Below, piece after piece: positions 12,120-46,011 of a stretch of 64,000 nucleotides of DNA (within the stretch, counting starts at the first letter, position 1; every line of letters begins with the position of its first letter). The DNA is from Sulfurovum sp. (GTDB lineage: Bacteria > Campylobacterota > Campylobacteria > Campylobacterales > Sulfurovaceae). The position numbers and the translations under genes were made by a program. The stretch spans positions 1 through 64,000 of the forward strand of contig JAMOSB010000009.1 in NCBI GenBank assembly GCA_027068485.1, in the 5' to 3' direction. The notes below the pieces were generated by a model. The model searched no databases. It worked only from the letters and a program-made list of their open reading frames with translations, and was not told the DNA's origin.

Positions 12120-12143
12120 GGGTTACTCCTTGTGTCTAGGGGG

Positions 12144-12168
12144 CTACCACACCCCAAGGGTGTAGTAG
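12144..12168 (-). terminator. 11-bp hairpin between purB and the VF530 gene
   Basis: The minus-strand RNA forms CUACUACACCC-UUG-GGGUGUGGUAG, an 11-bp stem with one G-U pair. The wobble pair is allowed only in the minus transcript (it is a C-A mismatch on the other strand), which supports an RNA role in the purB direction. No U-tract follows, so it may be an attenuator or mRNA-end structure rather than a classic terminator. Confidence 0.45.
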
Positions 12169-12175
12169 AGAGAGG

Positions 12176-13507: not shown

Positions 13508-13751
13508 TCTTCTACCTTGATTTTAATATAAAACCATTTTATCAAAATAGCCGTTAGGAAAAGGTGAAATGGGTTGTTATGGAGGTAGTTTATGCTCAAA
13601 TGCCCGTGTAGAGAAGTCTGCGTGGTCGAGGTGTTTGAGGTGGAGTCGCTCACGGCGGTAGGTCGATCACCGCACCTGCTTACGAGGTGAAGCAACACAC
13701 AGATCCCTCAACCTCCCCATCAGATGATGAAGTAGTGGGTTCACGCTCTCC
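13508..13751. other. Unexplained intergenic segment between purB and the glycan locus
   Basis: No confident gene is seen in these 244 bases. The plus strand holds a 32-codon ORF (MLKCPCREVC..., ATG at 13592) with GGAGG at good spacing. The minus strand holds a 64-codon ORF that meets the purB start in an ATGA overlap. The segment also has repeated GAGGTG words, a GCGGT/ACCGC hairpin and distant pairing arms (GTGAA at 13564 with TTCAC at 13740; GGAGGT at 13581 with ACCTCC at 13711). It could be a dispersed repeat, a structured RNA or decayed sequence. The purB promoter must lie at its left end. Confidence 0.3.
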
Positions 13752-14495: not shown

Positions 14496-14499
14496 ACGC

Positions 14500-17631: not shown

Positions 17632-17644
17632 AATCGATACTCCT

Positions 17645-21880: not shown

Positions 21881-23109
21881 CCCACTACCTCCTCAAACAT
21901 ACTCTCATACGCCTCTATAATCCTCTCCTCGGAGAAGTATTCAGTGAGTTGTTCACTCCAAAGGGAGCATAGGCTACGATCTTGTCTCCAGAGATGATAG
22001 AGTTGCTCAATCCCCTTAAAGATCGCATCACAAGAGGAGACATCCACACAGATACCCCCACCATACGACTCAATCAGCTCTGCCACACAACTCCCCTTGG
22101 GCGTAATCGCAAAGATAGGGCGTGTAAGCCCACTATAGTCTGCCATCTTACTAGGGAGAAATATCCCCTCTTTTAGATCCGCTTCAATCAACAAAAGAAG
22201 ATCATAGCGTGCCATCACCTCTAGTGATCTATGATAGGAGAGACTCCCACAAAATCGTACATACGGCTCAAGCCCATAATAGGAGACCAAACTACGGCTA
22301 ACCTCATCCTCCCTTCCCATAAAATCGATTCGGATAGGTACACCACGATAGCGTCTGACAAAGAGGGAAATCGCTTCAAAAAGGCTCTTGGGGCTTCGCT
22401 CTATCGAGAGGTTACCTATATGACACCATGAGAACGACTCTGCTATCTCCGCGGTATGAGGTCTCTGGCGTGGGGAAGCGATATGGGGAACCACACGCCA
22501 CGCTATCGTATGAGACGAGGGGATGTGGCGTAGGAGATAGGTACCTAAGCGTTGGGAGGGGAAGGTATTGTAGTGGGCATAGGACATCATACGCTTCATA
22601 AAATACCCATAGAGCCTTCGCTTCCACCCTTGTAGGGGTAGCGTATAGGGGGAGGGCCAGAGGTGTGCAACGGGGTCATTCCAGTTGGCGATCCACGGGA
22701 TAGATCGTGCTTTGGCAAAGTGATAGGCGGGGAGATGGGAGATATCATTGGGAGAGCGAGAGAGTACCACATCATAGGGATGTTGATCATGCAGGAGCAG
22801 TGCGTGACGATAGGCACGCCTTGCCCAGCGTACCCCATCGAGAGGAAACCCCATCACGAGACTACTTCGTATCGTATCCCACCACCGCACAAGGGGACCC
22901 CCTACAGGATAGGAGAGTTCATGAATCAGAGGCTTAAGTACGCCCCACTCCTCCTCTAGGTGTGTCGTGTAGGTAGCCCCCTCATCCTTCTTGGAGATGA
23001 CATCGACCTCCCACCCCTTAGCTAAAAATGCCATAACCAATTTGCTATTGACAATATTTTCCGAAAAAGTATATGGGGCAAACCCTGTAGCAATAAAAAG
23101 AATCCTCAT
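21877..23109 (-). CDS. Glycosyltransferase, GT4-like
   Basis: The protein starts MRILFIATGFAPYTFSENIVNSKLVMAFLAKGWEVDVIS, the usual first Rossmann strand and acceptor loop of GT4 enzymes. The C-terminal domain has CHIGNLSIERSPKSLFEAIS, a segment of RYDLLLLIEADLKEGIFLPSKMADYSG and RPIFAITPKGSCVAELIES. The donor site is more divergent than in its neighbours. The track begins at 23142, but the ATG at 23109 overlaps the upstream stop in ATGA and begins exactly at the conserved strand, so I use it. Confidence 0.8.
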   Translation of the reverse strand: MRILFIATGFAPYTFSENIVNSKLVMAFLAKGWEVDVISKKDEGATYTTHLEEEWGVLKPLIHELSYPVGGPLVRWWDTIRSSLVMGFPLDGVRWARRAYRHALLLHDQHPYDVVLSRSPNDISHLPAYHFAKARSIPWIANWNDPVAHLWPSPYTLPLQGWKRRLYGYFMKRMMSYAHYNTFPSQRLGTYLLRHIPSSHTIAWRVVPHIASPRQRPHTAEIAESFSWCHIGNLSIERSPKSLFEAISLFVRRYRGVPIRIDFMGREDEVSRSLVSYYGLEPYVRFCGSLSYHRSLEVMARYDLLLLIEADLKEGIFLPSKMADYSGLTRPIFAITPKGSCVAELIESYGGGICVDVSSCDAIFKGIEQLYHLWRQDRSLCSLWSEQLTEYFSEERIIEAYESMFEEVVG

Positions 23110-24317
23110 AATCGTACCAGATGCTCCCATACGCCTAACCATCGTGCTATCTTACGCACAGGTCTCACAAGCAGATGCCAAAGCCAAGGGAGATCTCCAA
23201 GCAGAGAGAGAACAACCTCTCCACTGCGTGGTCTTGGGGAGCTACCCACGCCCTCGATCAGCTCAAGGTAGGCTCTACCCATCTCATCGGCACTAAAGTG
23301 TGTAGCGATCTGCTTCCAAGCCTGATAGGCGTTGTGTTGGAGTAGTAGCGGATTGCCCTGCAACGCAATAATCCGATCGGCAAACCCATCGGGTAGCCTC
23401 TCTAACGGAAAGAGGTATCCACTCTCCCCCTCCTCTACCACATGATCTGTATGCCCCGTGAGTCGTGTCACAAGAGGCACCATACCCTGTGCCATCGCCT
23501 CCATCAAGACAATAGGATGCCCCTCATAGTGTGAGGGCATCAATACAATATGGTGATGCTCCATCATCGCAATCACCTCGCTATGCTCCCGACTCCCTAG
23601 CAGTGAGATATGAGCAGTGAGCTGAAGTCGTTGGATCTCCTCCCGTAACGACTCCATAGACTCCCCATCTCCTATCACACTGAGGTGTATCGCTTCTCCC
23701 CCTTGTGCTAGCACCTGCTCTATAATCGTAGGCAGATACTCTACCCCCTTTTGGTGATGCTCCACCCTCCCTACATAGAGTAGTTTAAGCTCCTCTCCTA
23801 CCTGATATACCCTATTGGCTCTAGAGTAATTTTGCGGTGTTACGACCCCATTGGCGATGGTTGTGACACCAAGAGATGCCTCTCCAATACTACGCTCTAT
23901 CTCCTCTTGCAGTGCGGGACTCACCGCGACAATCTGATGTAACGCCTCTAGGTTGGCTATCGCATTACGCACCATGGAGGGGAGGGCATTATGCACAATA
24001 GCCATCACAACACTACGAGGAGGTAGTAACCCTACAATACTCTGAGCAAACGGGGCATCATTGAGGAGTATGACATCATACGATTGTAGATGGTGTGCGA
24101 TACGCTTGACATGGTGGAGCCTCGACTCCCATGGAGAGATAAGGATCGAGACGACAGACTCCCCTTCTCTTGTGAGATACTCTGACCATACACCTTTGGT
24201 AGAGGTCTCTACCAATACCACCTCATGATGCTTCGCTCGAAAGTAGCCAGAGAGTAGATGAAGCATCGATTCGACCCCTCCTATCTCTAGGGCGTAAGTG
24301 ACCAAAGCGATTTTCAT
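23106..24317 (-). CDS. Glycosyltransferase family 4
   Basis: A 403-aa GT4 enzyme: MKIALVTYALEIGGVESMLHLLSGYF with the GGVE acceptor loop, KLLYVGRVEHHQKGVEYLPTII, LSVIGDGESMESLREEI and the EX7E motif SHYEGHPIVLMEAMAQGMVPLVT. It overlaps the flippase stop by 4 bases (ATGA). The C-terminal tail after residue 360 contains a long hydrophobic/basic segment that may sit on the membrane. Sugar specificity is unknown. Confidence 0.92.
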   Translation of the reverse strand: MKIALVTYALEIGGVESMLHLLSGYFRAKHHEVVLVETSTKGVWSEYLTREGESVVSILISPWESRLHHVKRIAHHLQSYDVILLNDAPFAQSIVGLLPPRSVVMAIVHNALPSMVRNAIANLEALHQIVAVSPALQEEIERSIGEASLGVTTIANGVVTPQNYSRANRVYQVGEELKLLYVGRVEHHQKGVEYLPTIIEQVLAQGGEAIHLSVIGDGESMESLREEIQRLQLTAHISLLGSREHSEVIAMMEHHHIVLMPSHYEGHPIVLMEAMAQGMVPLVTRLTGHTDHVVEEGESGYLFPLERLPDGFADRIIALQGNPLLLQHNAYQAWKQIATHFSADEMGRAYLELIEGVGSSPRPRSGEVVLSLLGDLPWLWHLLVRPVRKIARWLGVWEHLVRL

Positions 24318-25783
24318 TGTTGCTCCTTATAACGCACACTATGAATCAAGGCAATAATCTCTTGATAGGTTTGATTAAACAGGAGTAAAAAAGTTAGAAA
24401 GTAGATCAGCATTCCCACAAGGATAGAGAGGATAAATGCAAATAGAAGGGGGAGTAACGCGTGTAAAAAATACTCTACCCAAAAAGCCCCTATCCCTGTC
24501 AAGAGTGACGCAATAATAATAGGCATAATCTCTCTTAGTAAGAGGCTTATACGCATTTTAATCAGTCTAAACGCGATCAACAAAGAGAGCCAAAAAGTCA
24601 ATATAGCACTCAGAGACATCCCCATCGCCACCCCCACAATTCCATAAGCATACCCCAATAGGCTTACAGAGACAACCGTAATAGAAAGCTTAAAAAACTC
24701 TATTTTGAAGAGTAGTTCTGGTCGCTCTTTTACCAAAAAAATTGTCCCAATAGAGACAGACAAAATATAAATCATAGGAGATATAGAGATGATTTGCAAG
24801 GGAAGTACGATCATACTCCACTGTGTACCCCAAAAGAGTAACACCATCGGTTCGGCCAAAAAGATAATTCCAAAGAGTATTGGATAGGTAATAAAAGTGA
24901 TATATTTGGTCATACGAATATAGCTCTCTCCCAATAGCAGTCTACCCATTTGACGCTTTTTAATCATATAGGGTAGTAGTACAGAACTAGCAGGAATGGC
25001 TAACTTAGTATAGACAAGATTGGGAATACGGTAGGCAAAGGAGTAGAATCCTAGCTCCCGACTACCAAGAAGCTTTCCAATAATAAGATAGTCAACATTG
25101 TGTCGTATATAGTTGAGTACTCTCTCCCCTGTTAGATGAAATCCAAACCGTAAAAAGTAGCGTAAGAAGCTAACATCAAAGGAGAGACTCGGTCGCCATC
25201 TCGCAAAGAGCATATAGCACAAGGACATCACAACTTCTGAACACAGAATGCCAATAACAACCCCCCAATAGTCAAACCCATAATAGACCACTAAGATAAT
25301 AGCGATCAGTGTCTCTATCACCATTCCCACTAGTGTAATGGCATTGAGGACTTTAAACTGCATCTCTTTGTTGAGGAGTGCTTTAGAGACAGAGGCAAAT
25401 CCTAGTGGAATAAAAAGAAGGGCATAGAGAGGGAGTAGCGATGCCAGTGGCGTTACATCAAAAAAATCGGATAGTATCTTGGCACTTATAGCCGTAAGCA
25501 TCCCCAAAAAAGCAAACCAGAAGAGATTAAACCAAAATGCGGTAGAGAGTTCTCTTTGGCTAATCTGCTCTCGTGTCACAATAACCATCGAAGCACCAAA
25601 TTCACTCAGATGTGAAAAAAGACTATAGACTAATGAAGCGTAAGCGATAATGCCAAAATCTTCAGGGAGAAGGATGCGTGCTAGTACAAAAGTTGCTACG
25701 AGTCGGATCAAAACCTGTACCATACCTGTAAGAATATTGATGATGCTTCCCACCCCTGCACGCTTTCTCAATACGCTACTCAT
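24314..25783 (-). CDS. Wzx-type oligosaccharide flippase (MOP superfamily)
   Basis: The 489-aa protein has about 12-14 hydrophobic segments and the MOP/polysaccharide-transporter layout: an N-terminal block GSIINILTGMVQVLIRLVATFVLARILLPEDFGIIAYASLVYS and a repeated pattern in the second half (GYAYGIVGVAMGMSLSAIL). It resembles WzxC-type flippases. It would move lipid-linked repeat units to the periplasmic face for the polymerase at 17.6 kb. Base composition is more AT-rich than the GT genes to its left, as in the two HprK-like genes upstream. Confidence 0.9.
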   Translation of the reverse strand: MSSVLRKRAGVGSIINILTGMVQVLIRLVATFVLARILLPEDFGIIAYASLVYSLFSHLSEFGASMVIVTREQISQRELSTAFWFNLFWFAFLGMLTAISAKILSDFFDVTPLASLLPLYALLFIPLGFASVSKALLNKEMQFKVLNAITLVGMVIETLIAIILVVYYGFDYWGVVIGILCSEVVMSLCYMLFARWRPSLSFDVSFLRYFLRFGFHLTGERVLNYIRHNVDYLIIGKLLGSRELGFYSFAYRIPNLVYTKLAIPASSVLLPYMIKKRQMGRLLLGESYIRMTKYITFITYPILFGIIFLAEPMVLLFWGTQWSMIVLPLQIISISPMIYILSVSIGTIFLVKERPELLFKIEFFKLSITVVSVSLLGYAYGIVGVAMGMSLSAILTFWLSLLIAFRLIKMRISLLLREIMPIIIASLLTGIGAFWVEYFLHALLPLLFAFILSILVGMLIYFLTFLLLFNQTYQEIIALIHSVRYKEQQ

Positions 25784-25787
25784 TACC

Positions 25788-26855
25788 CTACTTTGTAAAG
25801 CTATCTATGAGATGGAAGAGACCCTGTTCATCCCCTGTCTGCTTCTTCACACCACTAAACTCATACGCTACGAGTAGTGCATCGATCATCTTACTTTGTC
25901 TCTTTTGGTAGTAGCTAAAGTCTGAGGAGACTAGACTAAAATACCCATCAAAATCAAGAAATGTTCTATTTTCCAACGCTAAACAGAGTTTCAACCTAGG
26001 AAGAAGATATCCTCTCTCAACCTCAAAAAATCCCGTCTTTGCCTCAGTGCGTTCAAGCCAGATAAAGTGCGTCGTATCAGGGAGTTTCGCTACACTACAA
26101 GAGGGGTAGAGTAGACGATAATCAACCTTTTGATCTATCACTCTTCTAAGTCGCCACTCTATCCGAAAGAGTAAAAAACGATAGAGAAACGCACTATGCT
26201 TGGACGCTTGAATCTTCATAAGCAGTTTTAATCTCCATTGAGAGACTCGGGTCTTTTTCAATAATAATGGCTTGTAGTGAAAGTTGTAATAGAGTAGATT
26301 GATACGCTTGCGATAGGGGTAGATCACTCCATTTTGGTCTACTACGGTCAAGTCATCGGCAAGATACTCCCCCCCTCTCTCCAATATATCAAGGAGTAGA
26401 TTGGTCTTACCTGTACCACCAAACGCATTGATAACATAACACGCTCCCTGATAAGAAAAAGCTGACGCATGTAGGAAGAGTAGCCCAAATGCTGTCGCAT
26501 AATACCGCATCAATACCTCATGAAGATAGAAGAGCGTAAAGGGATCAAATCCCTCTTCAACACATAAAACATAACAATCTCGTGCCATGACAATAGAGAG
26601 ATGAAACCCCTCTTGTACAAAGTAGATCGACTCCCCTTGATAATACAATGTCTGATCTATCAACACACTACTATCCTGAGGAATAACAATCTTCTCTACC
26701 ACCTCAACCAAAGAGATCCTAGGAAGGATACGCTCTGCCTCATAAGGGTGATGTGTATACTCCTCTTTAAAATAGGCAAGAATAGCAGAGGGTACAGAGG
26801 CGTGTAGTGCAATCGTAAATTTACCAAAAAAACTAAACTGCTCGTTGATCATCAT
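25788..26855 (-). CDS. HPr kinase-like P-loop protein (HprK-related), copy 1
   Basis: I see an HprK-type core in the middle of a ~355-aa protein: LHASAFSYQGACYVINAFGGTGKTNLLLDIL, with a Walker A FGGTGKT near residues 145-151, followed by GGEYLADDLTVVD, which keeps the HprK-like paired aspartates. True HprK phosphorylates HPr on serine; related proteins in polysaccharide and peptide clusters act on other, mostly unknown, targets. The N-terminal part (antiparallel-looking, VLIDQTLYYQGESIYFVQEGFHLSIV) and the C-terminal half are divergent. The track start 26873 is passed over for the ATG at 26855, which has an AAAAGG ribosome site; it overlaps copy 2 by 23 bases. No HPr gene is in the window. 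Confidence 0.72.
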   Translation of the reverse strand: MMINEQFSFFGKFTIALHASVPSAILAYFKEEYTHHPYEAERILPRISLVEVVEKIVIPQDSSVLIDQTLYYQGESIYFVQEGFHLSIVMARDCYVLCVEEGFDPFTLFYLHEVLMRYYATAFGLLFLHASAFSYQGACYVINAFGGTGKTNLLLDILERGGEYLADDLTVVDQNGVIYPYRKRINLLYYNFHYKPLLLKKTRVSQWRLKLLMKIQASKHSAFLYRFLLFRIEWRLRRVIDQKVDYRLLYPSCSVAKLPDTTHFIWLERTEAKTGFFEVERGYLLPRLKLCLALENRTFLDFDGYFSLVSSDFSYYQKRQSKMIDALLVAYEFSGVKKQTGDEQGLFHLIDSFTK

Positions 26856-27822
26856 AAAGCCTTTTATTATCACTCATAGTTGCACGCATACATTCGTAAT
26901 ACACGATATCCTCCCCCTCTTCACACTCTAGTAGATTAAGATCCAACTGATCATTGACAAGAGCCAAAAAAGTTAAGTAGCGTCGTAGATCTAAAAACTC
27001 TGGTAAAAAATCCCAAAAGAGCTGATGATATCTCTCTAATCGATTGGCTACACCTCGCTTAAAGTAATAGCGTTCACCCAAGTAAGTATAGATAAAACGA
27101 GGCGTATTGACTTTTTGAAGGGCTACCCTAATCTTCTCATACTTCTTTCCATACGCATCACCCTGACCATTGGTGTAGAGGCGTAGAGGATCAGGCACAA
27201 AGAAAAGTGACCTCTTAGAGTAGAGAATAAAGTTATCAGAGAGTAGTGTAGCTCCCTCTGTCTGGGCAAGAAGGGCTAAACTACTCTTACCAATACCATC
27301 AAACCCAATCATAGCAACACTCTGCCCTTCTTGAAAAAAAGCTGAACCATGAGAGAGTGCAACCGACTCTATTTGGTTAAGCATAATAAAATAGGGGTAT
27401 AAAATAGCGTGTCGTAGGGCTTGGACTATACTATGTTGCCTTGCTCTCATCACCTGCTCTCTTCTTCTACTACTCAAAAGATTGCGTAGTGTGGTAGTGC
27501 AGGAGAGAGGTTTTTTCAATATCTCTATTTCAGAAACAATTTTATGAGACGCTAGCTCTAGTATGCTAATGCGTAGGGTTTGATCAAAAAGATAGTAGCT
27601 TTTCTCACCACCCTTGTAGAGATCATTTGAGATTTTAGTCCGATAAACGGTACGATCAAACTCCTCAACAAACCGTATCGTACTCACAATATGATACTGC
27701 GCTACAGTATCCATAGGCTCTAAAGTATAATACTCAAGGTACTCCGAAAGCTCACTAGGGGCTTCAATAGAAAAAGCGATACCATTGAGTAGAAACCTCC
27801 TACACTGCATTAGCATACCCAT
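26833..27822 (-). CDS. HPr kinase-like P-loop protein (HprK-related), copy 2
   Basis: A 329-aa protein with the same plan as its downstream neighbour: an N-terminal sensory-like domain, then ALSHGSAFFQEGQSVAMIGFDGIGKSSLALLA with Walker A GFDGIGKSS near residues 173-181, and ATLLSDNFILYSK. Here the second aspartate of the HprK pair is asparagine (SDN instead of ADD), so the two copies may differ in activity. It overlaps the galE stop by 23 bases; three ATGs (27822, 27816, 27810) are possible starts. Sequence identity between the two copies looks low outside the core, so they are old duplicates or separately acquired. Function in glycan assembly is unknown. Confidence 0.7.
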   Translation of the reverse strand: MGMLMQCRRFLLNGIAFSIEAPSELSEYLEYYTLEPMDTVAQYHIVSTIRFVEEFDRTVYRTKISNDLYKGGEKSYYLFDQTLRISILELASHKIVSEIEILKKPLSCTTTLRNLLSSRRREQVMRARQHSIVQALRHAILYPYFIMLNQIESVALSHGSAFFQEGQSVAMIGFDGIGKSSLALLAQTEGATLLSDNFILYSKRSLFFVPDPLRLYTNGQGDAYGKKYEKIRVALQKVNTPRFIYTYLGERYYFKRGVANRLERYHQLFWDFLPEFLDLRRYLTFLALVNDQLDLNLLECEEGEDIVYYECMRATMSDNKRLYDDQRAV

Positions 27823-28819
27823 GAGGGTTCTGCTCTTGCCATCGCCAGCTATCTTGACACATCTCCTCTAGACCTCGTGTCGCTTCCCAGCCCAAGACTT
27901 CCTTGGCATAGGAGGGGTCAGCATAACAGCTAGCGATATCACCACTGCGTCGTGGAGCGATGGTATAGGGGATTGCTCTACCTGAGACCTTCTCAAAGGC
28001 TTTGATCATCTCTAGTACCGAGTAGCCTCGACCTGTACCAAGGTTGACACTCAAGACCCCCGCAAGTGAGGTGATCTTCTCGACGGCTTTGAGGTGTCCT
28101 AGTGCGAGATCGACAACATGGATATAGTCTCGCACTCCCGTCCCATCAGTAGTGGGGTAGTCACCCCCAAAGACACTGAGGCTCTCGCGTTTTCCTACGG
28201 CTGTTTGAGTGATAAAGGGCATTAGATTATTGGGGATACCGTTAGGGTCTTCTCCTATCAGTCCTGAGTGGTGTGCCCCTACAGGATTGAAGTAACGCAA
28301 CAGTACCACTCGCCACGCCTTATCTGAGGTACTCACATCACGCAACATCTCTTCGATAAAGAGCTTGGTTCTACCATAAGGGTTGGTTGCACAGAGTGGG
28401 AACTCCTCTTTGATAGGGACAGTATGGGGGTCTCCATAGACTGTCGCAGAGGAGCTAAAGACCATCGCTTTACAGCCATACTCCGCCATCACTTCACATA
28501 GGAGTGTCGTACCGTGGAGATTGTTATCATAGTATTTGAGTGGATGAGCGACCGACTCCCCGACTGCTTTGAGCCCTGCAAAGTGAATCACCACATCGAT
28601 AGTGTATGCTTCAAAGAGACGCTGAAGATCCTCACGACTTCGGATATCTCCCGTTACCAAAGGGATCTTCTCTCCTACAATCTGCTCTACCCGACGGATA
28701 CTCTCTGGAGAGCTGTTGGAGAAGTTGTCAAATATCACCACTTCATACCCTGCTTCTATTAAGACGATTGCAGTATGTGAACCAATATACCCCGCCCCAC
28801 CTGTTAGTAGTACTCTCAT
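27800..28819 (-). CDS. galE: UDP-glucose 4-epimerase
   Basis: GalE interconverts UDP-glucose and UDP-galactose (or the GlcNAc/GalNAc forms) with bound NAD. The 339-aa short-chain dehydrogenase-type protein begins VLLTGGAGYIGSHTAIVL (NAD-binding), has MVFSSSATVYG and the catalytic YGRTK (Tyr-x3-Lys) near residue 148, and ends with DPSYAKEVLGWEATRGLEEMCQDSWRWQ, the GalE C-terminal pattern. It is the first gene of the glycan operon, behind AAGGAGAGA and a TGCTATAAT promoter. Confidence 0.95.
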   Translation of the reverse strand: MRVLLTGGAGYIGSHTAIVLIEAGYEVVIFDNFSNSSPESIRRVEQIVGEKIPLVTGDIRSREDLQRLFEAYTIDVVIHFAGLKAVGESVAHPLKYYDNNLHGTTLLCEVMAEYGCKAMVFSSSATVYGDPHTVPIKEEFPLCATNPYGRTKLFIEEMLRDVSTSDKAWRVVLLRYFNPVGAHHSGLIGEDPNGIPNNLMPFITQTAVGKRESLSVFGGDYPTTDGTGVRDYIHVVDLALGHLKAVEKITSLAGVLSVNLGTGRGYSVLEMIKAFEKVSGRAIPYTIAPRRSGDIASCYADPSYAKEVLGWEATRGLEEMCQDSWRWQEQNPHGYANAV

Positions 28820-28843
28820 AAACTCTCTCCTTCAAATAAGTAG

Positions 28844-28849
28844 ATTATA
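28844..28849 (-). promoter_or_regulatory. -10 element of the glycan operon promoter (galE)
   Basis: TATAAT on the minus strand is preceded by TGC, giving an extended -10 (TGCTATAAT), 25 bases upstream of the galE start. All genes from galE down to the WecG-type gene run the same way with overlaps or very short gaps, so this is probably the main promoter for about 15 kb. Confidence 0.55.
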
Positions 28850-28896
28850 GCATACTAAAAGGGAAGAGTGGAGGGGTTAAAGAGAAAAAGCACCCC

Positions 28897-29556
28897 CTAA
28901 TAGGAGAACTTATAGCCTCGTCTTCGCACCGTATGAATTACTTGAAATCCAAGGATACTTTTAAGTCGTTTGCGTATCTGATTGATTGCGACCTCTACGG
29001 TGTTGTCGCTGACATACTCAGGCTCTTCCCAGAGTGCATTGATGATCTCATCTTTGGAGAAGACACGCTGTTTTCTCAACGCTAAATAGGCGAGGATGTC
29101 AAAGGTCTTTCCGTTAAGTGAGACGATCTTTTGATCATACTCTATCTTTTTGTTAGCGATATCGATCACTAGCTTATCGATATTGACCTGTGTACCAAAG
29201 AGGTGTCGCATATTGGCAAGTACCCGTGCAGCGATAAGATCTGGCTTGTCACAGTGCTGGTAGATGACATCATCAACACCCAAGGCAAAAAAGCCCATCT
29301 GTCGCTGTGGCTTATCGGTGAGTATCATAATCTTTGTCTCACTCTTCTTGCGTTTGACCTCATTGACATACCGCTCTAGGGAAAACTTCACACCCTCATC
29401 GACAATGACGACAAGTTCATAGTGTCTAAAGTCTGTAAAATTGGTCGCATCATACATATCTTTGGCATTATCAACAATGCAGATAAAATACTTCTCTAAC
29501 TCTTCTTCAAACTCTCTGACATACTCATCTCTGAACCCTACGGTTAATATTCTCAT
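28897..29556 (-). CDS. hsrA: HsrA/HP1043-type atypical OmpR-family response regulator
   Basis: A 219-aa OmpR/PhoB-type regulator with a receiver domain (1-115) and a winged-helix DNA-binding domain (125-219: LNGKTFDILAYLALRKQRVFSKDEIINALW, DNTVEVAINQIRKRLKSIL, VIHTVRRRGYKFSY). The usual phosphoacceptor position at the end of beta-3 is not Asp: YELVVIVDEG places the Asp one residue late, as in HP1043 of Helicobacter pylori (YDLVMVSD). That family is phosphorylation-independent, essential, and controls central metabolism and redox genes in Helicobacter and Campylobacter. There is no partner kinase gene next to it, consistent with an orphan regulator. The symbol is given by similarity to HsrA. 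Confidence 0.85.
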   Translation of the reverse strand: MRILTVGFRDEYVREFEEELEKYFICIVDNAKDMYDATNFTDFRHYELVVIVDEGVKFSLERYVNEVKRKKSETKIMILTDKPQRQMGFFALGVDDVIYQHCDKPDLIAARVLANMRHLFGTQVNIDKLVIDIANKKIEYDQKIVSLNGKTFDILAYLALRKQRVFSKDEIINALWEEPEYVSDNTVEVAINQIRKRLKSILGFQVIHTVRRRGYKFSY

Positions 29557-37406: not shown

Positions 37407-40400
37407 CTATAGCTCAAAATCCTCTACGGGGTTGAGCTTGATAATCAGTGTCCGCAGGAGGTTGATATTGGGGACATTAGGGGCGACTATACTGTAGTGA
37501 GCATGGTCGTGTGAGGTCGCATTACGCATATTGTCTACAAACATTATACTCTTAACCTGTAGACGATCAAGCAGTTGACCAAACTCCTCCTCCTTGTCTC
37601 TATCGATCTCTAGTATCTCTTTATCAAAGAGGGCATACTTCACATGGTGAGCAAGGAGTAGAGACTTCATCTCTTCAAAATCTTTTGCCACCTTCACAGT
37701 GTAGCCTATCTTATGTAGCAATACCTCAAAGATTCTAGCATCATGTGTTGAATACTTACACAAAACAACATTAAAGGACTCCGTAGGTTCCGCTTTGAGT
37801 GGTTCTTTGATTTTGATGCTTTTGGGTTGCTTGGCTACACGCTCCCCATCAACCTTATCAGGGAAGTAGGTCGCAAGGAGGTCACGCAGTACCTCTATCT
37901 TGATGGGCTTAGACATATAGTCATCCATCCCTTCAGCCAAGAAGCGTTCTCTATCTCCCTTGAGGGCATTGGCAGTGAGTGCAACAATAGGGATATGGGG
38001 GATACCATACTCCGCCTCATAGCTCAGTATCGCCTCAGTCGCCTCGATACCATTCATCACGGGCATCTGCACATCCATAAAGATGATATCAAACCCATCA
38101 CTCATGCGTCGATCTAGTGCAACCTTACCATTATCCACCAAGGAGACCTCAGCACCTATCCCTTCGAGTGTCTGTTTGATAAGCTTCTGGTTGATACTAT
38201 TATCTTCAGCTACCAAGATACGAAGATTTTTAAACTGTATGACCTTCTGCTTCTCCTCACTCACACCAACACCTTGAGAGAGCAGAAGTGTACTCTCTAT
38301 CTTGGTGAGGTTAAAGGGTGCGTAGAGTACCCTAAAGAGTTGAGGCTCTTGATTTTGTACCTCTTGTTTCTGATAGACTTCCGTAAGTAGCACGACTTTA
38401 GAGTCGAGTTGTTCCAATAGCTCAAAATCCCCCTCCTCTAAAAGAGCATAACGAACAAAGAGAAGATCAGGGTGGAGGCTACTATTTTGCTCCGCAAGCA
38501 GTGCAAGATCACTAACCACCTCATACCCACTACTCAACGCATCGATATAGGTCTGGACATTTCTATCTTCTGTGGTTGCGGTATGGATAGAGGGGAGATA
38601 GTAGAGGATATGAAGATCCCCAAAATTATTGGTTTTTTGGATCTGCATACTGCGTTCCATCTCTAGCTCGAAAAAGAAGCGTGTCCCCTCTCCCTCTTGA
38701 CTCTCGAGATCGAGTACCCCACCCATAAACTCAACCAACCGTCCAGAGATCGTCAATCCTAGTCCTGTACCACCAAACTCACGACTGGTACTACTATCGG
38801 CTTGCGTAAAGGCCTCAAAGATCTTACTCTTCTGCTCAGGAGTGACACCAATCCCTGTATCTTTGACACTAAAGCGTACTCTATCATGGGTACTTCCACC
38901 TACCCGCTCGATACGCACATCCACCGTCCCATACTCAGGCGTAAACTTGATCGCATTACTGATGAGATTGACGAGGACTTGTTTGATCTTGTTGGGGTCA
39001 CCTTTGAGCTGATGGGTCGCTAATGCTGGATCGATATAGAGCGTAAAGGTGATCTGCTTCTCTGATGCTTTGGCACCATACGCCTCAATCCCACTCTCAA
39101 ACTCCTCGATAGGATTAAAGTCGATATGCTCTATCTCTATCTTCTCACTCTCAATCTTGGAGAGGTCAAGGATATCATTGATAACCGAGAGGAGGTTCTC
39201 TGAACTCTTCTTGATAATCTGCACAAACTCTTTTTGTTCACTATCAAGATGGGTCTCTTTGAGTAGATCAGTAAATCCAACCACCCCATTAAGCGGGGTG
39301 CGTATCTCATGAGACATATTGGCAAGGAAGAGACTCTTGGCACTGTTTGCCTCCTCTGCTAGCCTCTTACTCTCTTTGGCATCGAGTACGGTATGCTCCA
39401 AAAACTCATACATCTGTCTCTTATCTTTCTGCTGTACCATCTCAATCAGTGCCATCTCACTCTCGATATCAGAGTCACTTGCGATATTTTTGATAATCTT
39501 CTCAAGGTTCTTTGTATCACTCTCCATATGCTCAAAGATACTTCGTACAATAAAGAGTAGTATCACAAAAAAGAGGAATACCCCTATGGCTATCCACATC
39601 TGACGACTATAGTCTGTCAACTCCTCTTCAACTGTTGCTTGTGACGCACCCAAAAGCACCTTTTTTGCCCGCTCTAGCAGGGCTATTTTGGCACTCTGTT
39701 GATCGACCCAAAGTGACGCTTTAATCGTGTATCGCCCACACATAGACTCACCAATCAGTGTCGTACGATAACTAAAAAGCTTGGTCTCTATCCGCTCGTA
39801 AGAGTGTTTTCCTAAGATACTCTCTAGCTTCAAACTCTGCTCTAGAGAGAGTAGATGATGGTAATCCACAAGGTCGTTACCTGCTAAGACCCTATCCCAC
39901 ACCTCCAACTCCTCTGTACTGATGGGGGTTTTACGCAGAAGAAAGAGAGAGACTAACGCACGCTCTGTATAGCTATTGGCTTGGAGTGCTACAATCGACT
40001 GATAGACCCTAGAGAGGGCATGATCACCAAGGTGTACATCAGTCTCATACCCCGCTATGATTTGTGCTACACTCTCTACAATATAGGTATCAAAGTAGTT
40101 TTTGATCAGATCACCATTGAGGGTTTGGATATTGATCCGCTCCTGTTTGAGTCCCTCTAGCTGTGTGAGGATGGGAGTGATTTTATACCTATAGCGTCTA
40201 TTCTGCTCCCCTAGCTCTTGAAGTCTCTTGATCGCCTTATCGGTCTTGTCCCACTGAGACTCAACCGTATGGAAGTCCGACTTCCCCCCCTTGCCGATAT
40301 AGGTCGCAACCACCCCCTGCTCTTCACCTAGCTCCATCAATACACGACTCAACTGATTTTTATAGGCGAGTGCAACACCCTCTTCTCTACTCTGTTTATA

Positions 40401-40502
40401 GCCCTCATAGGCATGATAAAAATAGTACACAGAGGCCAATAATATGGCGATAATGGGTAAGACGACCGCGGTATAGGAAAAACGATTTTTTAATAGTTTC
40501 AT
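37407..40502 (-). CDS. Hybrid sensor histidine kinase with NIT-like periplasmic domain and several receiver domains
   Basis: A 1031-aa inner-membrane kinase. Membrane helices lie near residues 10-30 and 310-330. Between them is a ~280-residue helical region (LMELGEEQGVVATYIGKGG, ALQANSYTERALVSLFLLRKTP) that resembles the NIT nitrate/nitrite-sensing fold. Then come HisKA (FLANMSHEIRTPLNGVVGF), HATPase (QVLVNLISNAIKFTPEYG, FGGTGLGLTIS), a degenerate receiver, a full receiver (LVAEDNSINQ, IIFMDVQMPVMNG, VALTANA) and a C-terminal degenerate receiver (VVLCKYSTHDARIFEVLLHKIG) in which the Asp position is hard to place. It is 10 bases downstream of the PilJ-like gene and likely cotranscribed with it. 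The signal sensed is inferred only. Confidence 0.85.
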   Translation of the reverse strand: MKLLKNRFSYTAVVLPIIAILLASVYYFYHAYEGYKQSREEGVALAYKNQLSRVLMELGEEQGVVATYIGKGGKSDFHTVESQWDKTDKAIKRLQELGEQNRRYRYKITPILTQLEGLKQERINIQTLNGDLIKNYFDTYIVESVAQIIAGYETDVHLGDHALSRVYQSIVALQANSYTERALVSLFLLRKTPISTEELEVWDRVLAGNDLVDYHHLLSLEQSLKLESILGKHSYERIETKLFSYRTTLIGESMCGRYTIKASLWVDQQSAKIALLERAKKVLLGASQATVEEELTDYSRQMWIAIGVFLFFVILLFIVRSIFEHMESDTKNLEKIIKNIASDSDIESEMALIEMVQQKDKRQMYEFLEHTVLDAKESKRLAEEANSAKSLFLANMSHEIRTPLNGVVGFTDLLKETHLDSEQKEFVQIIKKSSENLLSVINDILDLSKIESEKIEIEHIDFNPIEEFESGIEAYGAKASEKQITFTLYIDPALATHQLKGDPNKIKQVLVNLISNAIKFTPEYGTVDVRIERVGGSTHDRVRFSVKDTGIGVTPEQKSKIFEAFTQADSSTSREFGGTGLGLTISGRLVEFMGGVLDLESQEGEGTRFFFELEMERSMQIQKTNNFGDLHILYYLPSIHTATTEDRNVQTYIDALSSGYEVVSDLALLAEQNSSLHPDLLFVRYALLEEGDFELLEQLDSKVVLLTEVYQKQEVQNQEPQLFRVLYAPFNLTKIESTLLLSQGVGVSEEKQKVIQFKNLRILVAEDNSINQKLIKQTLEGIGAEVSLVDNGKVALDRRMSDGFDIIFMDVQMPVMNGIEATEAILSYEAEYGIPHIPIVALTANALKGDRERFLAEGMDDYMSKPIKIEVLRDLLATYFPDKVDGERVAKQPKSIKIKEPLKAEPTESFNVVLCKYSTHDARIFEVLLHKIGYTVKVAKDFEEMKSLLLAHHVKYALFDKEILEIDRDKEEEFGQLLDRLQVKSIMFVDNMRNATSHDHAHYSIVAPNVPNINLLRTLIIKLNPVEDFEL

Positions 40503-40512
40503 ACTCTACTCC

Positions 40513-41280
40513 CTATTGGTTTTTACTATGGAAAAGTGCTAAATCTGCCAAGACACTCTCTAGGTGCAGTGTAGAGAGATAGAGGATATTGGGTAGTGTG
40601 TGCTTTTTGATTGAGACATAAAAGACCCGTACCACCCGCCAATACTGACGAATCATCTCTAGCTCTTTGAGTAGACTCCCCTCATATGAGTAGGTAAATA
40701 ACACTGCCAACTCCGTATCAAACTGATCAATCGCTCCATAGAGTGCCTTGAGTGTATGCTTGGTGACAAATCCTGCGTGATAGGCTAGATAGTATTTATT
40801 GATGCGTTCAAGGAGATACTCCATATTTTTGATACGAATAAACATCTGCTCCTCTAGTGAAAAGTCATAGGCATGCTCTTGGGTGAGAGATGTTGCCCCC
40901 TCTAAGAGGGTTTCACTATAATCTATCATCAACGCTGCACGCTCCATACTATAGGGTTGTACGACAATCTCCCCTATCTGCTCACTACTTAACGACAGAA
41001 AACTCAAAAGGTTTCGAGCATCTTTACTACGGGTAGCCGTAGCAATCAGTCGAAGCTTCTCATCAAGCTGAGAGACAATAGCTTGTAACTTCCGCTCTCC
41101 ACGCTTTGCAACATTGGCTCTTTTGGCTTGATAGAAGTACTCTTTGACAATCTTCTGACTCATAAACTTAATCTCTTCAGAGGCTTCCAAAATCTTTACA
41201 TCACTTCGTGTCGTAGCCGCACCAAGCCAAGTAGCGATCAGTTGCCAGACTATCAAGTGTATCAACATAGCTCTTTTCAT
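40513..41280 (-). CDS. Periplasmic PilJ/NarX-like four-helix sensory protein
   Basis: The 255-aa protein has a signal peptide (MKRAMLIHLIVWQLIATWLGAA) and is otherwise helical. The segment ILEASEEIKFMSQKIVKEYFY resembles the PilJ/NarX N-terminal sensor motif (RMLSQR-type), where nitrate or other small ligands bind in NarX. There is no membrane anchor or output domain after the signal, so it would act as a periplasmic ligand-binding partner for the kinase encoded immediately downstream. A TATAGT promoter and AAAAGGAG ribosome site precede it. Family assignment is moderately sure; the ligand is unknown. Confidence 0.65.
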   Translation of the reverse strand: MKRAMLIHLIVWQLIATWLGAATTRSDVKILEASEEIKFMSQKIVKEYFYQAKRANVAKRGERKLQAIVSQLDEKLRLIATATRSKDARNLLSFLSLSSEQIGEIVVQPYSMERAALMIDYSETLLEGATSLTQEHAYDFSLEEQMFIRIKNMEYLLERINKYYLAYHAGFVTKHTLKALYGAIDQFDTELAVLFTYSYEGSLLKELEMIRQYWRVVRVFYVSIKKHTLPNILYLSTLHLESVLADLALFHSKNQ

Positions 41281-41317: not shown

Positions 41318-41374
41318 AAATTGGTCATAATTGATATAAGTCATCGCCTACATACACTCAAAGTACCATTACGA

Positions 41375-41420: not shown

Positions 41421-41519
41421 ATGAATGAAAATATAATGAAGGCACTCCAAGATATCAGTGGGTATATGGGGGGTGCGATCAGTAACTATAGAGGAGAGTG
41501 TCTCATCCAACTATTGTAA
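41421..41519 (+). pseudogene. 32-codon ORF, probable truncated remnant or small protein
   Basis: The ORF is too short for the track. It reads MNENIMKALQDISGYMGGAI and continues with SNYRGECLIQLL before TAA. It has both a TATAAT promoter and AAAGGA ribosome site. The sequence looks like the first helix and strand of a roadblock/LC7-like small regulatory protein, cut off after about 30 residues; nothing after the stop continues it. It sits between two signalling operons. It may be a remnant of a signalling gene or a genuine small protein. Confidence 0.4.
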
Positions 41520-41548: not shown

Positions 41549-42181
41549 CTAATCCTTCACGGGGTGCAAGAGTGCAAACGCGACCAACTGCTCCGTTGTA
41601 CTCAAAGAGAGTTTCTCTAGGATGCGTGTCCGATAGGTGGAGACGGTCTTGGGGCTGATATTGAGCTTTTGGGCGATTTTACTAAAACAGACTCCTTCAC
41701 TCAACGCACTATAGACCTCATACTCTCGCTGAGAGAGACTATCGAGTAGTCTATCTTTACACTTGGTAAACTTGGTACCAAAGGGGAGTGTCTCCTGATA
41801 CTCTTTGGTTAGATAGGTCGCACCACTTGAGACCCGCTTCACCGCCTCTATGAGATTTTCAGGGAGTACCGTCTTGTTGAGGTACCCCTTCGCCCCTGCT
41901 TGGATAGACTGAATGGCATAGGGGTTCTCAGGGTGCATACTCAAGACAAGGGTCGGGAGGTCGGGATAGAGATGGTTCACCTCTTGTATCGTATAGATAC
42001 CATTTTTATCTCCAAGATTGAGATCGAGAATAAGCAGATCATAGTGACTACGGCTCAGCTTCTCTTGTAGCATAGCAAAGGAGGAGGACTCCGCTATCTC
42101 AACCCTCTCCCCTAGGGAGCCTAGTATCAACCCTACGCCTGCACGCACAATCTGATGATCATCCGCTATCATCACACGCAT
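41549..42181 (-). CDS. NarL/LuxR-family response regulator
   Basis: A 210-aa regulator with a complete receiver domain (RVMIADDHQIVRAGV; phosphoacceptor in LLILDLNLGDKNG; VLSMHPE; LNKTVLPENL) and a LuxR-type helix-turn-helix (LSQREYEVYSALSEGVCFSKIAQKLNISPKTVSTYRTRILEKL). It is the likely output of the FIST-kinase-Hpt relay encoded immediately upstream, with a 4-base gap to the Hpt gene. LuxR-type regulators are relatively uncommon in Campylobacterota. Confidence 0.93.
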   Translation of the reverse strand: MRVMIADDHQIVRAGVGLILGSLGERVEIAESSSFAMLQEKLSRSHYDLLILDLNLGDKNGIYTIQEVNHLYPDLPTLVLSMHPENPYAIQSIQAGAKGYLNKTVLPENLIEAVKRVSSGATYLTKEYQETLPFGTKFTKCKDRLLDSLSQREYEVYSALSEGVCFSKIAQKLNISPKTVSTYRTRILEKLSLSTTEQLVAFALLHPVKD

Positions 42182-42185
42182 CAGA

Positions 42186-42500
42186 CTACTCCGTGAGTAG
42201 AAGAGCCGTAATCATAGCGATACTCTCAGGAGAGTCGATATCCATACGAAGCTCTTTTATCTCTTCAGCTACAGAGCTATTACCTAGTTGAAACAGTAGC
42301 CCTTTGAGTGCATGAAGCGTACCACTCACCGCTTCTCTATCTACCACACTAGATGCTAGTTGCTCTTGAAGTCTAGCAAGGTTCTCCTCCAAATCCTTTG
42401 TCGCTTGTGTAATGAGTGGACGGATATCCTCCTCCTCAAATCCAAATGACTTCAAGTGCTTCTTGGCAATCTCTTGTGAACGATTAATGATCTTGTACAT
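42186..42500 (-). CDS. Histidine phosphotransfer (Hpt) protein
   Basis: A small helical protein with the Hpt phosphohistidine motif SGTLHALKGLLFQLGN (HxxKG). It would pass phosphate from the hybrid kinase receiver to the NarL-type regulator. The track start at 42515 is replaced by the ATG at 42500 (MYKIINRSQEIAKKH), which has a GAGGAGAGAGGGA ribosome site and overlaps the kinase stop by 17 bases, giving 104 residues. Confidence 0.88.
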   Translation of the reverse strand: MYKIINRSQEIAKKHLKSFGFEEEDIRPLITQATKDLEENLARLQEQLASSVVDREAVSGTLHALKGLLFQLGNSSVAEEIKELRMDIDSPESIAMITALLLTE

Positions 42501-44376
42501 TCCCTCTCTCCTCAATAATCTGATAGAGTCGATCCACTACCAAGGGTTTGGTGAGTATCCCATCAAACCCCGTCTCAGCTACCCGCTCATGGGTCTGCTT
42601 ATAGGCATCCGCGGTCAAAGCATAGGTCGCAGGGAGGGGTTTGATCTCCTTGAGCAACGCATAGAGTTTAAACCCATCAATCTCAGGCATCTTGAGATCA
42701 AGAAGCAGTAGATCATACGCCTCTTTCTCATAGTATGCTATCGCCTCCTTGGCTCCAAGTGCCAAATCCAATATCACATCAGGGTAGCGTTTTTTGACAA
42801 AGAGTCGCAAAAGATCAAGATTGGTTGCGATATCATCAACTGCCAATATCCTCGTAGTAATCTTCCTTGTTTTAGTACTTTTTCGTATTTTTGCTTTTGC
42901 TAAGCTTATGTAGTAGGAGAGTGGAGCTTGCTGTGTAAAGATACGGTCAAAATTACTCAGTGCCTCTTCCGATAGTCGCTCAACCCCCTCTGCGATAAAG
43001 GCTGTCTGCTCATAGCGTCCAAAGTGTTTGACATAGCCGATAAGCTCATCATACCCTTTGTAGTGTGCCTCTTGCCCTGTCACAATAGTAACCACATCAG
43101 GATGCTCTGTGGAGCTATTACGCTGGATAAAAAGCTCATTAGAGAACTTCTCCCCCACGCTAAATTTTTTGATATCTGCCCCCAAAGACTTAAACAACTC
43201 AAAACGCTCCATCGCATGGTGCTGATACTTCTCACTCTGGTACTCCTCTAGAAAACAGAAGTTGAGTCCTTGAAGGATAGTCGTATCAAGCGGATGACGC
43301 TTAAGCACTACCACAAACGCAAAGCGACTCCCCTGACCTTTTTGACTCTTGACGGTGAGTTCTCCTCCCATACGCTGAGCGAGCTGTTTGGAGATATAGA
43401 GTCCTAGCCCTAGCCCCTCTTCGGTATTGTTGTGACGGACATAGGACTCAAAGATACTCTCCTGCTCCTCCTCAGAGAGTCCCACCCCACTATCTTCAAC
43501 CGCAAAAGTAAACTCTACCAACTGCGGATCAATCATATTTTTAATCACTTCCAAAGAGACACTCCCTTTGGGGGTATACTTGACTGCATTACTGAGAAGA
43601 TTGCTCACGATCTCAAAGATACGATGCCCATCCCCATAAAACTGTGAGGAGAACATCGGGATATCATACTGAAACTTCAGCCCTTTGAGATGGGCTTTTT
43701 GGATAACGCTATCGATAGCCTGTATCATCACCTCATCGATCCAGAAGGGCTGTTTCTCTATCTCTAGCTGTCCTGAGTTGAGCTTACTAATCGAGAGGAT
43801 ATCCCCTACGAGTGCGGTGAGGCTCTTCGTGGCAGTCTGGATCTTATCGAGGTAGTTTTTAGTCCCTTGGGGGGAGATATTCTTCTCCTCTTGTACGATA
43901 TTGCCATACCCCTCAATCGCTGCGAGAGAGGTACGCATCTCATGAGAGACATTGGCGATCATTAGCTGATGGGTATGCAGTACCTTCTCTTGGTGCATCG
44001 AGAGGTGCCTGAGGACACGCTGTGCTGTCTGAGCTCTCTCTTGGGCTTTGATCGACTCCATACTCTTGACGACATAGGTCTTAAAAAAGAACTCCAAGAA
44101 GAAGCGATCGAGAAACTTATTGGGGGCTTCACTACGATAGTATCGTGCGAGACTACGATAGACAGAGTGAATCGTCTCAAAGAGCTGATGAGAGAAGAGC
44201 GGATCGTTTTGCATCGAGATACGATAACACAGTGCCAAGAAAAAACGCTGATCCTCCAGATCGAGTAACACCGCTTCAAGAAAACCCAAAAGCTCCTCAT
44301 GCTCCATAGGATCACTCTCAACACACTTAAGGGCTTCACTCACCACCTCTCGTATGGTACTATCTAAGACAATCAT
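42484..44376 (-). CDS. Cytosolic hybrid histidine kinase (HisKA-HATPase-REC)
   Basis: A 630-aa kinase without membrane segments. An N-terminal helical region of ~130 residues (MIVLDSTIREVVSEALKCVESDP...) leads into HisKA (LMIANVSHEMRTSLAAIEGYG), HATPase (FEIVSNLLSNAVKYTPKG, EGLGLGLYISKQLA), a divergent receiver-like spacer and a C-terminal receiver (ILAVDDIATNLDLLRLF, LLLLDLKMPEIDG, YALTADA, LTKPLVV). It is preceded and overlapped by a FIST gene (ATGA), so the FIST protein is the likely input module. Similar FIST-kinase pairs are known, including NosP-NahK in Pseudomonas and relatives. Confidence 0.92.
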   Translation of the reverse strand: MIVLDSTIREVVSEALKCVESDPMEHEELLGFLEAVLLDLEDQRFFLALCYRISMQNDPLFSHQLFETIHSVYRSLARYYRSEAPNKFLDRFFLEFFFKTYVVKSMESIKAQERAQTAQRVLRHLSMHQEKVLHTHQLMIANVSHEMRTSLAAIEGYGNIVQEEKNISPQGTKNYLDKIQTATKSLTALVGDILSISKLNSGQLEIEKQPFWIDEVMIQAIDSVIQKAHLKGLKFQYDIPMFSSQFYGDGHRIFEIVSNLLSNAVKYTPKGSVSLEVIKNMIDPQLVEFTFAVEDSGVGLSEEEQESIFESYVRHNNTEEGLGLGLYISKQLAQRMGGELTVKSQKGQGSRFAFVVVLKRHPLDTTILQGLNFCFLEEYQSEKYQHHAMERFELFKSLGADIKKFSVGEKFSNELFIQRNSSTEHPDVVTIVTGQEAHYKGYDELIGYVKHFGRYEQTAFIAEGVERLSEEALSNFDRIFTQQAPLSYYISLAKAKIRKSTKTRKITTRILAVDDIATNLDLLRLFVKKRYPDVILDLALGAKEAIAYYEKEAYDLLLLDLKMPEIDGFKLYALLKEIKPLPATYALTADAYKQTHERVAETGFDGILTKPLVVDRLYQIIEERGNVQDH

Positions 44377-45485
44377 ACCATCTCCTTTTCACAGAGTGAA
44401 CAGAGCGTAAAGGTCTGGTTTTGGAGCTGTGAGGATACCTCTGAGATCGAGGTACCTATCTCACCAAACGCATGTGCCCCAATAAAGGGGTGATTGAGAT
44501 GCTTCGCTAGGGTAATGAGCCACATATGCTCCCGTGTCCCCAAAAACTGCTTCATCCCAATACACGCAAACAAAAAGAGAACCCCACAATTGAGCTGAGG
44601 GTCAAAGAGTCTCTGGAAGCGTTTCTTCTCCTCAGTCACTCCTAACGGAGTCGAGATCTTGATCTCTCGGTAGGAGTCATCGATCTCTTTGTAGAGGAGG
44701 ATGCTCCCTTGCTCCCTATCGATACTCTTAATCGAAGAGAGGACACTAGATTCACTAATCGAATCGTTTTTATGAAAGAGAAAGAGCGGATGCTCAAAGG
44801 AGTTGATCCCCTCTTGGTGTATCTCCCCGATAATCTCCTCGATCACCTCAAGAGCAGGACGCCCCTCTAGTGCATAGAGTCTGTGTCCTTTGGCTTTGGT
44901 AATCTCAAGCCGTAACCCAATCGGCTCAAAGTTGTGTATGGCTATCCCTTGCATCTCATAGTAACGGCTATCGATAGAGCAGATGAGGGCTTGATGGTGG
45001 ATAAAGCGACCATTGTAGAAGAGTGTAGGCATCACTGCCTCCTCTGGGCTTCCTGCTATCATACCATAGAGCTTCCCACCCACCCCTAGACGCTTTTGAG
45101 TCACCTCAATCGTCTGCTCAGAACAGGACTCAGGCAGTTCAAACAAAAAAGCATGAGCAGAAGCAAACTTAGGCGTACACTTCTCCCACGCCTCCAACTC
45201 ACTACAACCAATCGTTTCAATGTGGTAGGCATCCTTACGAATCTCTAGTAGCATAAAGATACAGGTGTGATTACTGTTATCGATATGAGGTAGGGTATGG
45301 TAGATATTGGACTCTGAGCTACACCCAATAAACTCTAGTTCAGGATAGAGTGCATGGGCATACCCACAATGCTCTATCACCTCCGCCTCCTTACCTGCCA
45401 CATAAAACCCAATCGCAACAGTAGGAACAAACCCTATAGCACACACCGATGCAGGGGAAAAGTCTGAGACAATCTTATAGTTCAT
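44373..45485 (-). CDS. FIST domain signalling protein
   Basis: The 370-aa protein spans a FIST_N domain (TVAIGFYVAGKEAEVIEHCGYAHALYPELEFIGCSSESNIY) and a FIST_C domain (GHRLYALEGRPALEVIEEIIGE, CGVLFLFACIGMKQFLGTREHMW, PFIGAHAFGEIG). FIST proteins are cytosolic sensory modules; the NosP group binds heme and senses nitric oxide, but other members may bind amino acids. Heme ligands cannot be assigned by eye here. It lies first in the FIST-kinase-Hpt-NarL operon, with an ATGA overlap to the kinase gene, and is probably its sensor. Confidence 0.85.
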   Translation of the reverse strand: MNYKIVSDFSPASVCAIGFVPTVAIGFYVAGKEAEVIEHCGYAHALYPELEFIGCSSESNIYHTLPHIDNSNHTCIFMLLEIRKDAYHIETIGCSELEAWEKCTPKFASAHAFLFELPESCSEQTIEVTQKRLGVGGKLYGMIAGSPEEAVMPTLFYNGRFIHHQALICSIDSRYYEMQGIAIHNFEPIGLRLEITKAKGHRLYALEGRPALEVIEEIIGEIHQEGINSFEHPLFLFHKNDSISESSVLSSIKSIDREQGSILLYKEIDDSYREIKISTPLGVTEEKKRFQRLFDPQLNCGVLFLFACIGMKQFLGTREHMWLITLAKHLNHPFIGAHAFGEIGTSISEVSSQLQNQTFTLCSLCEKEMV

Positions 45486-45566: not shown

Positions 45567-45588
45567 TCTGTAGGTCTCTTCCTACAGA
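45567..45588. promoter_or_regulatory. Dyad in the divergent FIST / receiver promoter region, possible operator
   Basis: Perfect 8-bp arms TCTGTAGG and CCTACAGA flank 6 bases. The centre is about 42 bases upstream of the expected start of the plus-strand transcript (from the TATACT at 45608) and about 58 upstream of the minus-strand one. That is a usual place for an activator or repressor site. The binding protein is unknown; the NarL-type regulator is a candidate. Confidence 0.4.
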
Positions 45589-45636: not shown

Positions 45637-46011
45637 ATGAACAAGAGAGTACTTTTTGTGGATGATGTACAGTATAACATTGAGTTTGAGAGTAAAGTCG
45701 TCAAGACACTCGAGAAAGAGCTAGGGATCACCATCGAAGTCGATAGTGCCAATACCCTACAAGATGCCAAAAAAATCATCGAAAACAGTATGCCCTATGA
45801 TGCGATGATTGTCGACATGAATCTCCCTGATGGTTCAGGTGTTGATGTAGCAAAAGCGGCATTTCACAAATCTGAGATTACACGCCTTGCCGCACTCACC
45901 ATCTACCCTAGTAAGTACCAAGAGTATGCTGCTTTTTTTGACCTCTTTCTACGCAAACCTATCATGCCTACAGATTTCAAAGAGGCACTTATGCGTCTTT
46001 TGAAGATTTAA
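45637..46011 (+). CDS. Single-domain response regulator (CheY-like receiver)
   Basis: A 124-aa stand-alone receiver. The acidic pocket (LFVDDVQ), phosphoacceptor (MIVDMNLPDGSG), Thr switch (AALTIYP) and Lys (FLRKPI) are all present. With no output domain, it would act through protein contacts or as a phosphate sink. It is divergent from the FIST-kinase relay and may belong to it. acpS follows after a short gap. Confidence 0.9.
   Translation: MNKRVLFVDDVQYNIEFESKVVKTLEKELGITIEVDSANTLQDAKKIIENSMPYDAMIVDMNLPDGSGVDVAKAAFHKSEITRLAALTIYPSKYQEYAAFFDLFLRKPIMPTDFKEALMRLLKI

Follow-up and report, generated by a model that had tools for sequence, protein, structure and literature searches.

A probable GacA-like, self-regulating phosphorelay in Sulfurovum sp. 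with a FIST protein as one candidate input

Four adjacent genes of a Sulfurovum sp. genome, encoding a FIST protein, a hybrid histidine kinase, an Hpt phosphotransfer protein and a LuxR/NarL-type response regulator, raise the question of what pathway they form and whether it is the nitric oxide (NO)-responsive module that the original prediction, made from the DNA letters, had proposed. We addressed this question in a stretch of 64,000 nucleotides (assembly GCA_027068485.1, contig JAMOSB010000009.1, positions 1 to 64,000; hereafter the window) from a host genome of 1.73 Mb that is 98% complete, with 61 genomes of the genus, 68 genera sampled across the phylum and 150 genomes of the order for comparison. 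Judging from sequence comparison, the locus fairly probably encodes a GacA-like, self-regulating multistep phosphorelay that would be fed by two sensor kinases, with the cytosolic FIST protein as one input. The four genes and the stand-alone receiver gene beside them are the following.

44373..45485, minus strand: FIST protein of 370 amino acids, presumed cytosolic sensor (Pfam, fold match, 11 orthologues, conserved residues)
42484..44376, minus strand: cytosolic hybrid histidine kinase with an N-terminal helical domain (residues ~1-115), HisKA/HATPase, a linker without a Pfam match and a receiver
42186..42500, minus strand: Hpt phosphotransfer protein with an ATG start, an HxxKG motif and a sub-threshold Pfam Hpt match
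41549..42181, minus strand: LuxR/NarL-type response regulator with receiver and GerE domains that scores best against the GacA/UvrY/SirA model
45637..46011, plus strand: stand-alone receiver, divergent from the FIST gene, with D9, D10, D60, T88 and K107 conserved

All four minus-strand genes are intact. Their description as four overlapping genes holds for the FIST/kinase (4 bp) and kinase/Hpt (17 bp) junctions but is slightly loose, since the Hpt and regulator genes lie 4 bp apart; the list of open reading frames begins the Hpt gene at a TTG codon (42515), and the ATG start gives 42186-42500. The gene set was found again in 11 relatives and is therefore not a product of chance. Members of the FIST orthogroup are present in 12 of the 61 genomes of the genus, and at E ≤ 1e-25 none was detected in any other of the 68 sampled genera. 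In the relatives, the regulator, stand-alone receiver, FIST, kinase and Hpt genes are kept together, often with a gene for a GGDEF-EAL protein, and the stand-alone receiver shows the highest conservation of any component (52-63% identity). The unit exceeds four genes: the stand-alone receiver and a neighbouring operon for a PilJ-like protein and a NIT-domain kinase belong with it, and the receiver gene and two putative regulator DNA sites lie beyond the interval first singled out.

The earlier proposal of a complete relay is upheld, and the phospho-sites of the kinase, the Hpt protein and the regulator are all conserved among orthologues. The kinase carries HisKA, HATPase and receiver domains (Pfam), and its sites H145 and D560 are kept in the orthologues, 14 of which were recovered by an alignment search of the genus. 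The Hpt protein scores 18.7 bits against Pfam Hpt (PF01627), under the cut-off of 24.6, and its motif H63-x2-K66-G67 is invariant in 10 orthologues, as expected of a phosphoacceptor, while D7, D8, D53 and K103 are conserved among orthologues of the regulator. The regulator is the sole GerE (LuxR-type) protein of the host genome, and GerE exceeds the cut-off in 38 of the 150 genomes of the order, in agreement with the earlier remark that a relay with such an output is unusual in this lineage; Campylobacterota have been described as lacking NarPL and similar electron-acceptor regulators that are conserved in other proteobacteria (PMC6682613). Membership of the regulator in the NarL or GacA family was rejected, with scores under all cut-offs. 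Phosphate would pass from the kinase histidine to the aspartate of the kinase receiver, on to the Hpt histidine, and from there to an aspartate in the LuxR-type regulator, in the stand-alone receiver or in both.

A route by which the FIST protein could enter this relay is suggested by a kinase domain that is lost together with it. In two FIST-less genomes (G056 and G058) the kinase and Hpt genes are kept and the kinase sequence starts only at position 95-107 of the model; the N-terminal ~105 residues are missing from the kinase orthologues of FIST-less genomes, and the N-terminal domain is present in the kinase orthologue of every FIST-bearing genome in which the start of the gene lies on a contig. 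Because the domain and FIST are missing together, this domain is probably the FIST docking site, at which FIST, a separate cytosolic sensor, would set kinase activity. The same joint presence and absence backs the view that FIST is the likely kinase input. A structural model of moderate confidence shows the domain as all-helical; Pfam offers no convincing match to it, and a relationship to the NahK N-terminus was rejected for lack of similarity (hhalign probability 0.1). Its top fold similarity (window 43987-44376, minus strand) was to ApcE/globin-like structures and was non-significant (E 0.23 and worse).

Membership of the FIST family follows from Pfam scores above cut-off for both FIST (PF08495, 45.6 bits) and FIST_C (PF10442, 35 bits) and from a predicted structure (pLDDT 77) that matches the FIST fold of FBXO22 (prob 1.00); a PDB sequence search with the protein returned no relative, and as the sole query against named genomes it found nothing. 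H184 and H338 are invariant in the orthogroup and occur together with the FIST-wide C308, and since two histidines are invariant, the protein may bind a cofactor. The orthogroup also lacks two arginines that are common to NosP and the other Campylobacterota FIST proteins. Such a divergent protein, in a family proposed as a ligand-binding domain, would suit the sensing of a small molecule other than NO, so that the relay would report metabolic state. We regard this possibility as about evenly balanced, and it is compatible with the GacA-like relay proposed here.

The output side of the relay is marked by an 18-bp inverted repeat, TRTARG-N6-CYTAYA, found in upstream regions and similar to the GacA/UvrY box, TGTAAGN6CTTACA (PMC3171408). 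The two copies in the window, and the operon downstream of the second, are given below.

45569..45586, no strand assigned: putative regulator site TGTAGGTCTCTTCCTACA, between the FIST gene (84 bp from its start) and the receiver gene (51 bp from its start)
41335..41352, no strand assigned: putative regulator site TATAAGTCATCGCCTACA, which precedes the PilJ-like/NIT-kinase operon by 55 bp
40513..41280, minus strand: PilJ-like, presumably periplasmic protein whose sensor motif is degenerate; its gene opens the NIT-kinase operon
37407..40502, minus strand: membrane hybrid histidine kinase with a NIT sensor domain and a C-terminal receiver, without an Hpt of its own

The repeat occurs exactly twice in the 1.73-Mb genome, both times in intergenic regions of the module, and a control pattern has 0 matches; under a first-order model ~0.09 sites are expected per 64 kb, so roughly two genome-wide by chance, and the chance of both falling within the 419 bp of module intergenic DNA is ~6e-8. 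The module loci (122 kb) contain seven sites and the FIST-less loci (42 kb) six, with 0.05 expected for each; module, FIST-less and related loci together hold 19 sites (~0.1 expected), and the control loci (240 kb) hold none. Because it was in module loci that the motif first came to light, the enrichment there is partly circular. The genome-wide rarity is free of this circularity, as are unselected sites in G056 and G058 that precede PilJ arrays unlinked to the module. Further unselected sites lie near Wzz/tyrosine-kinase, polysaccharide-export, ManC and Polysacc_synt_2 genes in two other genomes (G020 and G050). Once phosphorylated, the regulator would bind these sites and so feed back on the module by controlling the receiver and FIST operons as well as that of the PilJ-like protein and NIT kinase; in relatives, PilJ arrays and exopolysaccharide genes would also come under its control. 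NarL heptamers upstream of the module genes were scattered, with no consistent pattern.

The second input would come from the membrane-bound NIT kinase and its periplasmic PilJ-like partners, feeding the same Hpt protein or the regulator. Its NIT domain scores 31.0 bits in Pfam (cut-off 24.9); the PilJ-like protein is without a Pfam match of its own and is homologous to a gene (L037:5296-6063) that adjoins canonical PilJ genes. Because its last domain is a receiver and it lacks an Hpt, the NIT kinase probably uses the Hpt of the module. That the FIST relay and this operon are independent systems and neighbours by chance might be argued from most PilJ/NIT cassettes of the genus, including one in this genome, being located elsewhere. 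Several observations make this unlikely: the rare regulator site is common to both; four relatives (G009, G015, G049 and G059) have the operon in the module neighbourhood, as in the window; the NIT-kinase orthologue of G059 also abuts the regulator gene; in G058, where the locus has no FIST gene, an orthologue minus its NIT domain directly adjoins the regulator and receiver genes; PilJ proteins occur in 11 of 12 module genomes versus 14 of 49 others (p = 1e-4, a value that overstates independence because the compared rows are related); and the unlinked PilJ arrays of G056 and G058 carry the site as well. The link to the neighbouring NIT/PilJ operon that had been suspected from the window is thus strengthened by conserved adjacency and a common site. 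Elsewhere in the host genome (contig C21, L170:4315-12298), a NIT kinase gene lies with six PilJ-like genes, two of which appear to be near-identical, recent copies.

The pairing of the repeat with the LuxR-type regulator is a sequence association, and the repeat might instead be the site of another regulator. We consider this quite unlikely: the 15 genomes with the regulator family have higher strict-form site counts than the 13 without it (p = 9e-6, again for related rows), sites accompany 12 of 14 loci whose regulators have a STYR-type recognition helix versus 1 of 5 with the SAHH type, and the form of the repeat matches the GacA box. Three loci with SAHH-type regulators (L039, L040 and L043) show a different repeat, TTACA-N8-TGTAA, and the site may switch with the helix. 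In five loci (L162, L164, L165, L167 and L171) the TRTARG-N6-CYTAYA site accompanies a paralogous FIST-less relay made up of a PAS protein, a GAF hybrid kinase, a receiver-kinase-receiver protein, Hpt, a LuxR regulator, a solo receiver and a GGDEF-EAL protein. A different stand-alone FIST gene of G050 (L179:2990-4108) also has such a site, at a distance of 86 bp. The window also contains a polysaccharide cluster (~12000-29000, minus strand) with genes for glycosyltransferases, a flippase and Wzy-like and GDP-mannose dehydratase-like proteins, within which no full-consensus 18-bp site was found. One small feature lies between the second site and the regulator gene.

41421..41519, plus strand: 32-codon open reading frame, truncated copy of a gene of ~121-134 amino acids (phmmer E 5.7e-9 to L190)

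In relatives, the full-length gene (e.g. L190:648-1013) is located downstream of an 18-bp-type site beside PAS and GAF-kinase genes and is without a Pfam match.

There remains the NO reading, in which FIST is a NosP-type heme-based sensor and the module a NosP-NahK pathway. The FIST gene has a cytosolic hybrid kinase gene and a LuxR regulator gene as neighbours, as in the regulator-NosP-NahK operons of Sulfitobacter, Sinorhizobium and Ruegeria, and the host has nirS and can therefore make NO. Of the two invariant histidines, H184 is one alignment column off the histidine in the DHF motif of NosP and may have an equivalent role, and V. cholerae CdpA, a FIST protein beyond NosP, has been reported to bind heme (PMC8846402), so that a position outside NosP is compatible with heme. 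However, the window FIST gave no match at E ≤ 0.01 to the NosP model NF041558 (NCBIfam; cut-off 450 bits), and its orthologue in L042 reached 28.6 bits, compared with 347-374 bits for alphaproteobacterial FIST proteins from regulator-FIST-kinase operons. For alignment, 83 NosPs were gathered from named genomes, Pseudomonas included; the histidine columns conserved in NosP (83/83 and 79/83) are not histidine in the window orthogroup, whose H184 is one column off the second of them. Placement in a NosP tree had been proposed with the original prediction, and there the NosPs sampled group as a single clade (100/100, 27 rows) with the window orthogroup separate (100/99), outside it. Such a position outside NosP was named by the original prediction, in combination with a lack of heme binding, as an outcome that would speak against it. 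Nor is the kinase NahK-like: it scores 123.5 bits against the NahK/ErcS' model NF041832 (cut-off 400), is the 8th-best match to it in its own genome, has BarA as its best equivalog score, also below cut-off, and is better described as a generic hybrid kinase. Module presence does not track nirS significantly (9/12 versus 24/49 genomes, p = 0.12), which takes away from the proposed NO theme. With model, tree and residues all rejecting FIST as NosP, we judge this reading very unlikely.

Besides the partial circularity of the enrichment, several points weigh against the two-kinase, GacA-like relay. The kinases of G056 and G058 are sisters (99/99), and the loss of the N-terminal domain is therefore a single evolutionary event. 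The genome encodes three other Hpt proteins, and an Hpt common to both kinases is inferred. The regulator scores 116.8 bits against the GacA/UvrY/SirA model NF007018 (cut-off 280), and in one relative (G024) the FIST-kinase-Hpt locus has no linked regulator. A more far-reaching version would comprise a new FIST sensor class (H184/H338 pair), a lineage-specific helical docking domain on the kinase and a dual-input relay whose signals, from FIST in the cytosol and from PilJ/NIT in the periplasm, meet at a single GacA-like regulator acting chiefly on its own sensors and, in relatives, on exopolysaccharide; we advance it tentatively, as rather doubtful in its entirety. The compact module, the predicted DNA site and regulon, and the natural loss of FIST with its candidate docking domain make the pathway directly testable. 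It bears on how vent-type denitrifiers sense their surroundings and cautions against taking every FIST-kinase pair for an NO sensor.

The module is a genus-restricted variant of known FIST-kinase and GacA-type relays. As in the NosP-NahK(-ErdR-like) operons of Alpha- and Gammaproteobacteria, a stand-alone FIST gene directly precedes a hybrid kinase gene with a LuxR-type regulator adjacent; unlike in those operons, the FIST protein lies outside the NosP clade and lacks the NosP-invariant histidine, the kinase has no PAS domain and is not NahK, and a separate Hpt, a solo receiver and a NIT kinase are added. In the NahK-HptB branch of the GacS multikinase network of P. aeruginosa, a FIST-controlled hybrid kinase passes phosphate to a separate Hpt (PMC11784011); the module shares the FIST-associated hybrid kinase and separate Hpt, between which phosphate transfer would occur here too, and differs in having Hpt and the LuxR-type output regulator in one operon and in the presumed convergence of kinases. 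B. pseudomallei NosRPK has a kinase, NosK, with ~130 amino acids of unassigned N-terminal sequence that is regulated by its FIST partner (PMC12570481), to which the unmatched N-terminal domain of the module kinase is comparable, whereas the NosRPK output is an HD-GYP regulator and an Hpt is not mentioned there. The likeness to BarA/UvrY (GacS/GacA) lies in the best equivalogs, UvrY/SirA/GacA for the regulator and BarA for the kinase, and in a site resembling the GacA box; unlike BarA/UvrY, the module scores under the cut-offs, and its sites precede protein operons of the module itself.

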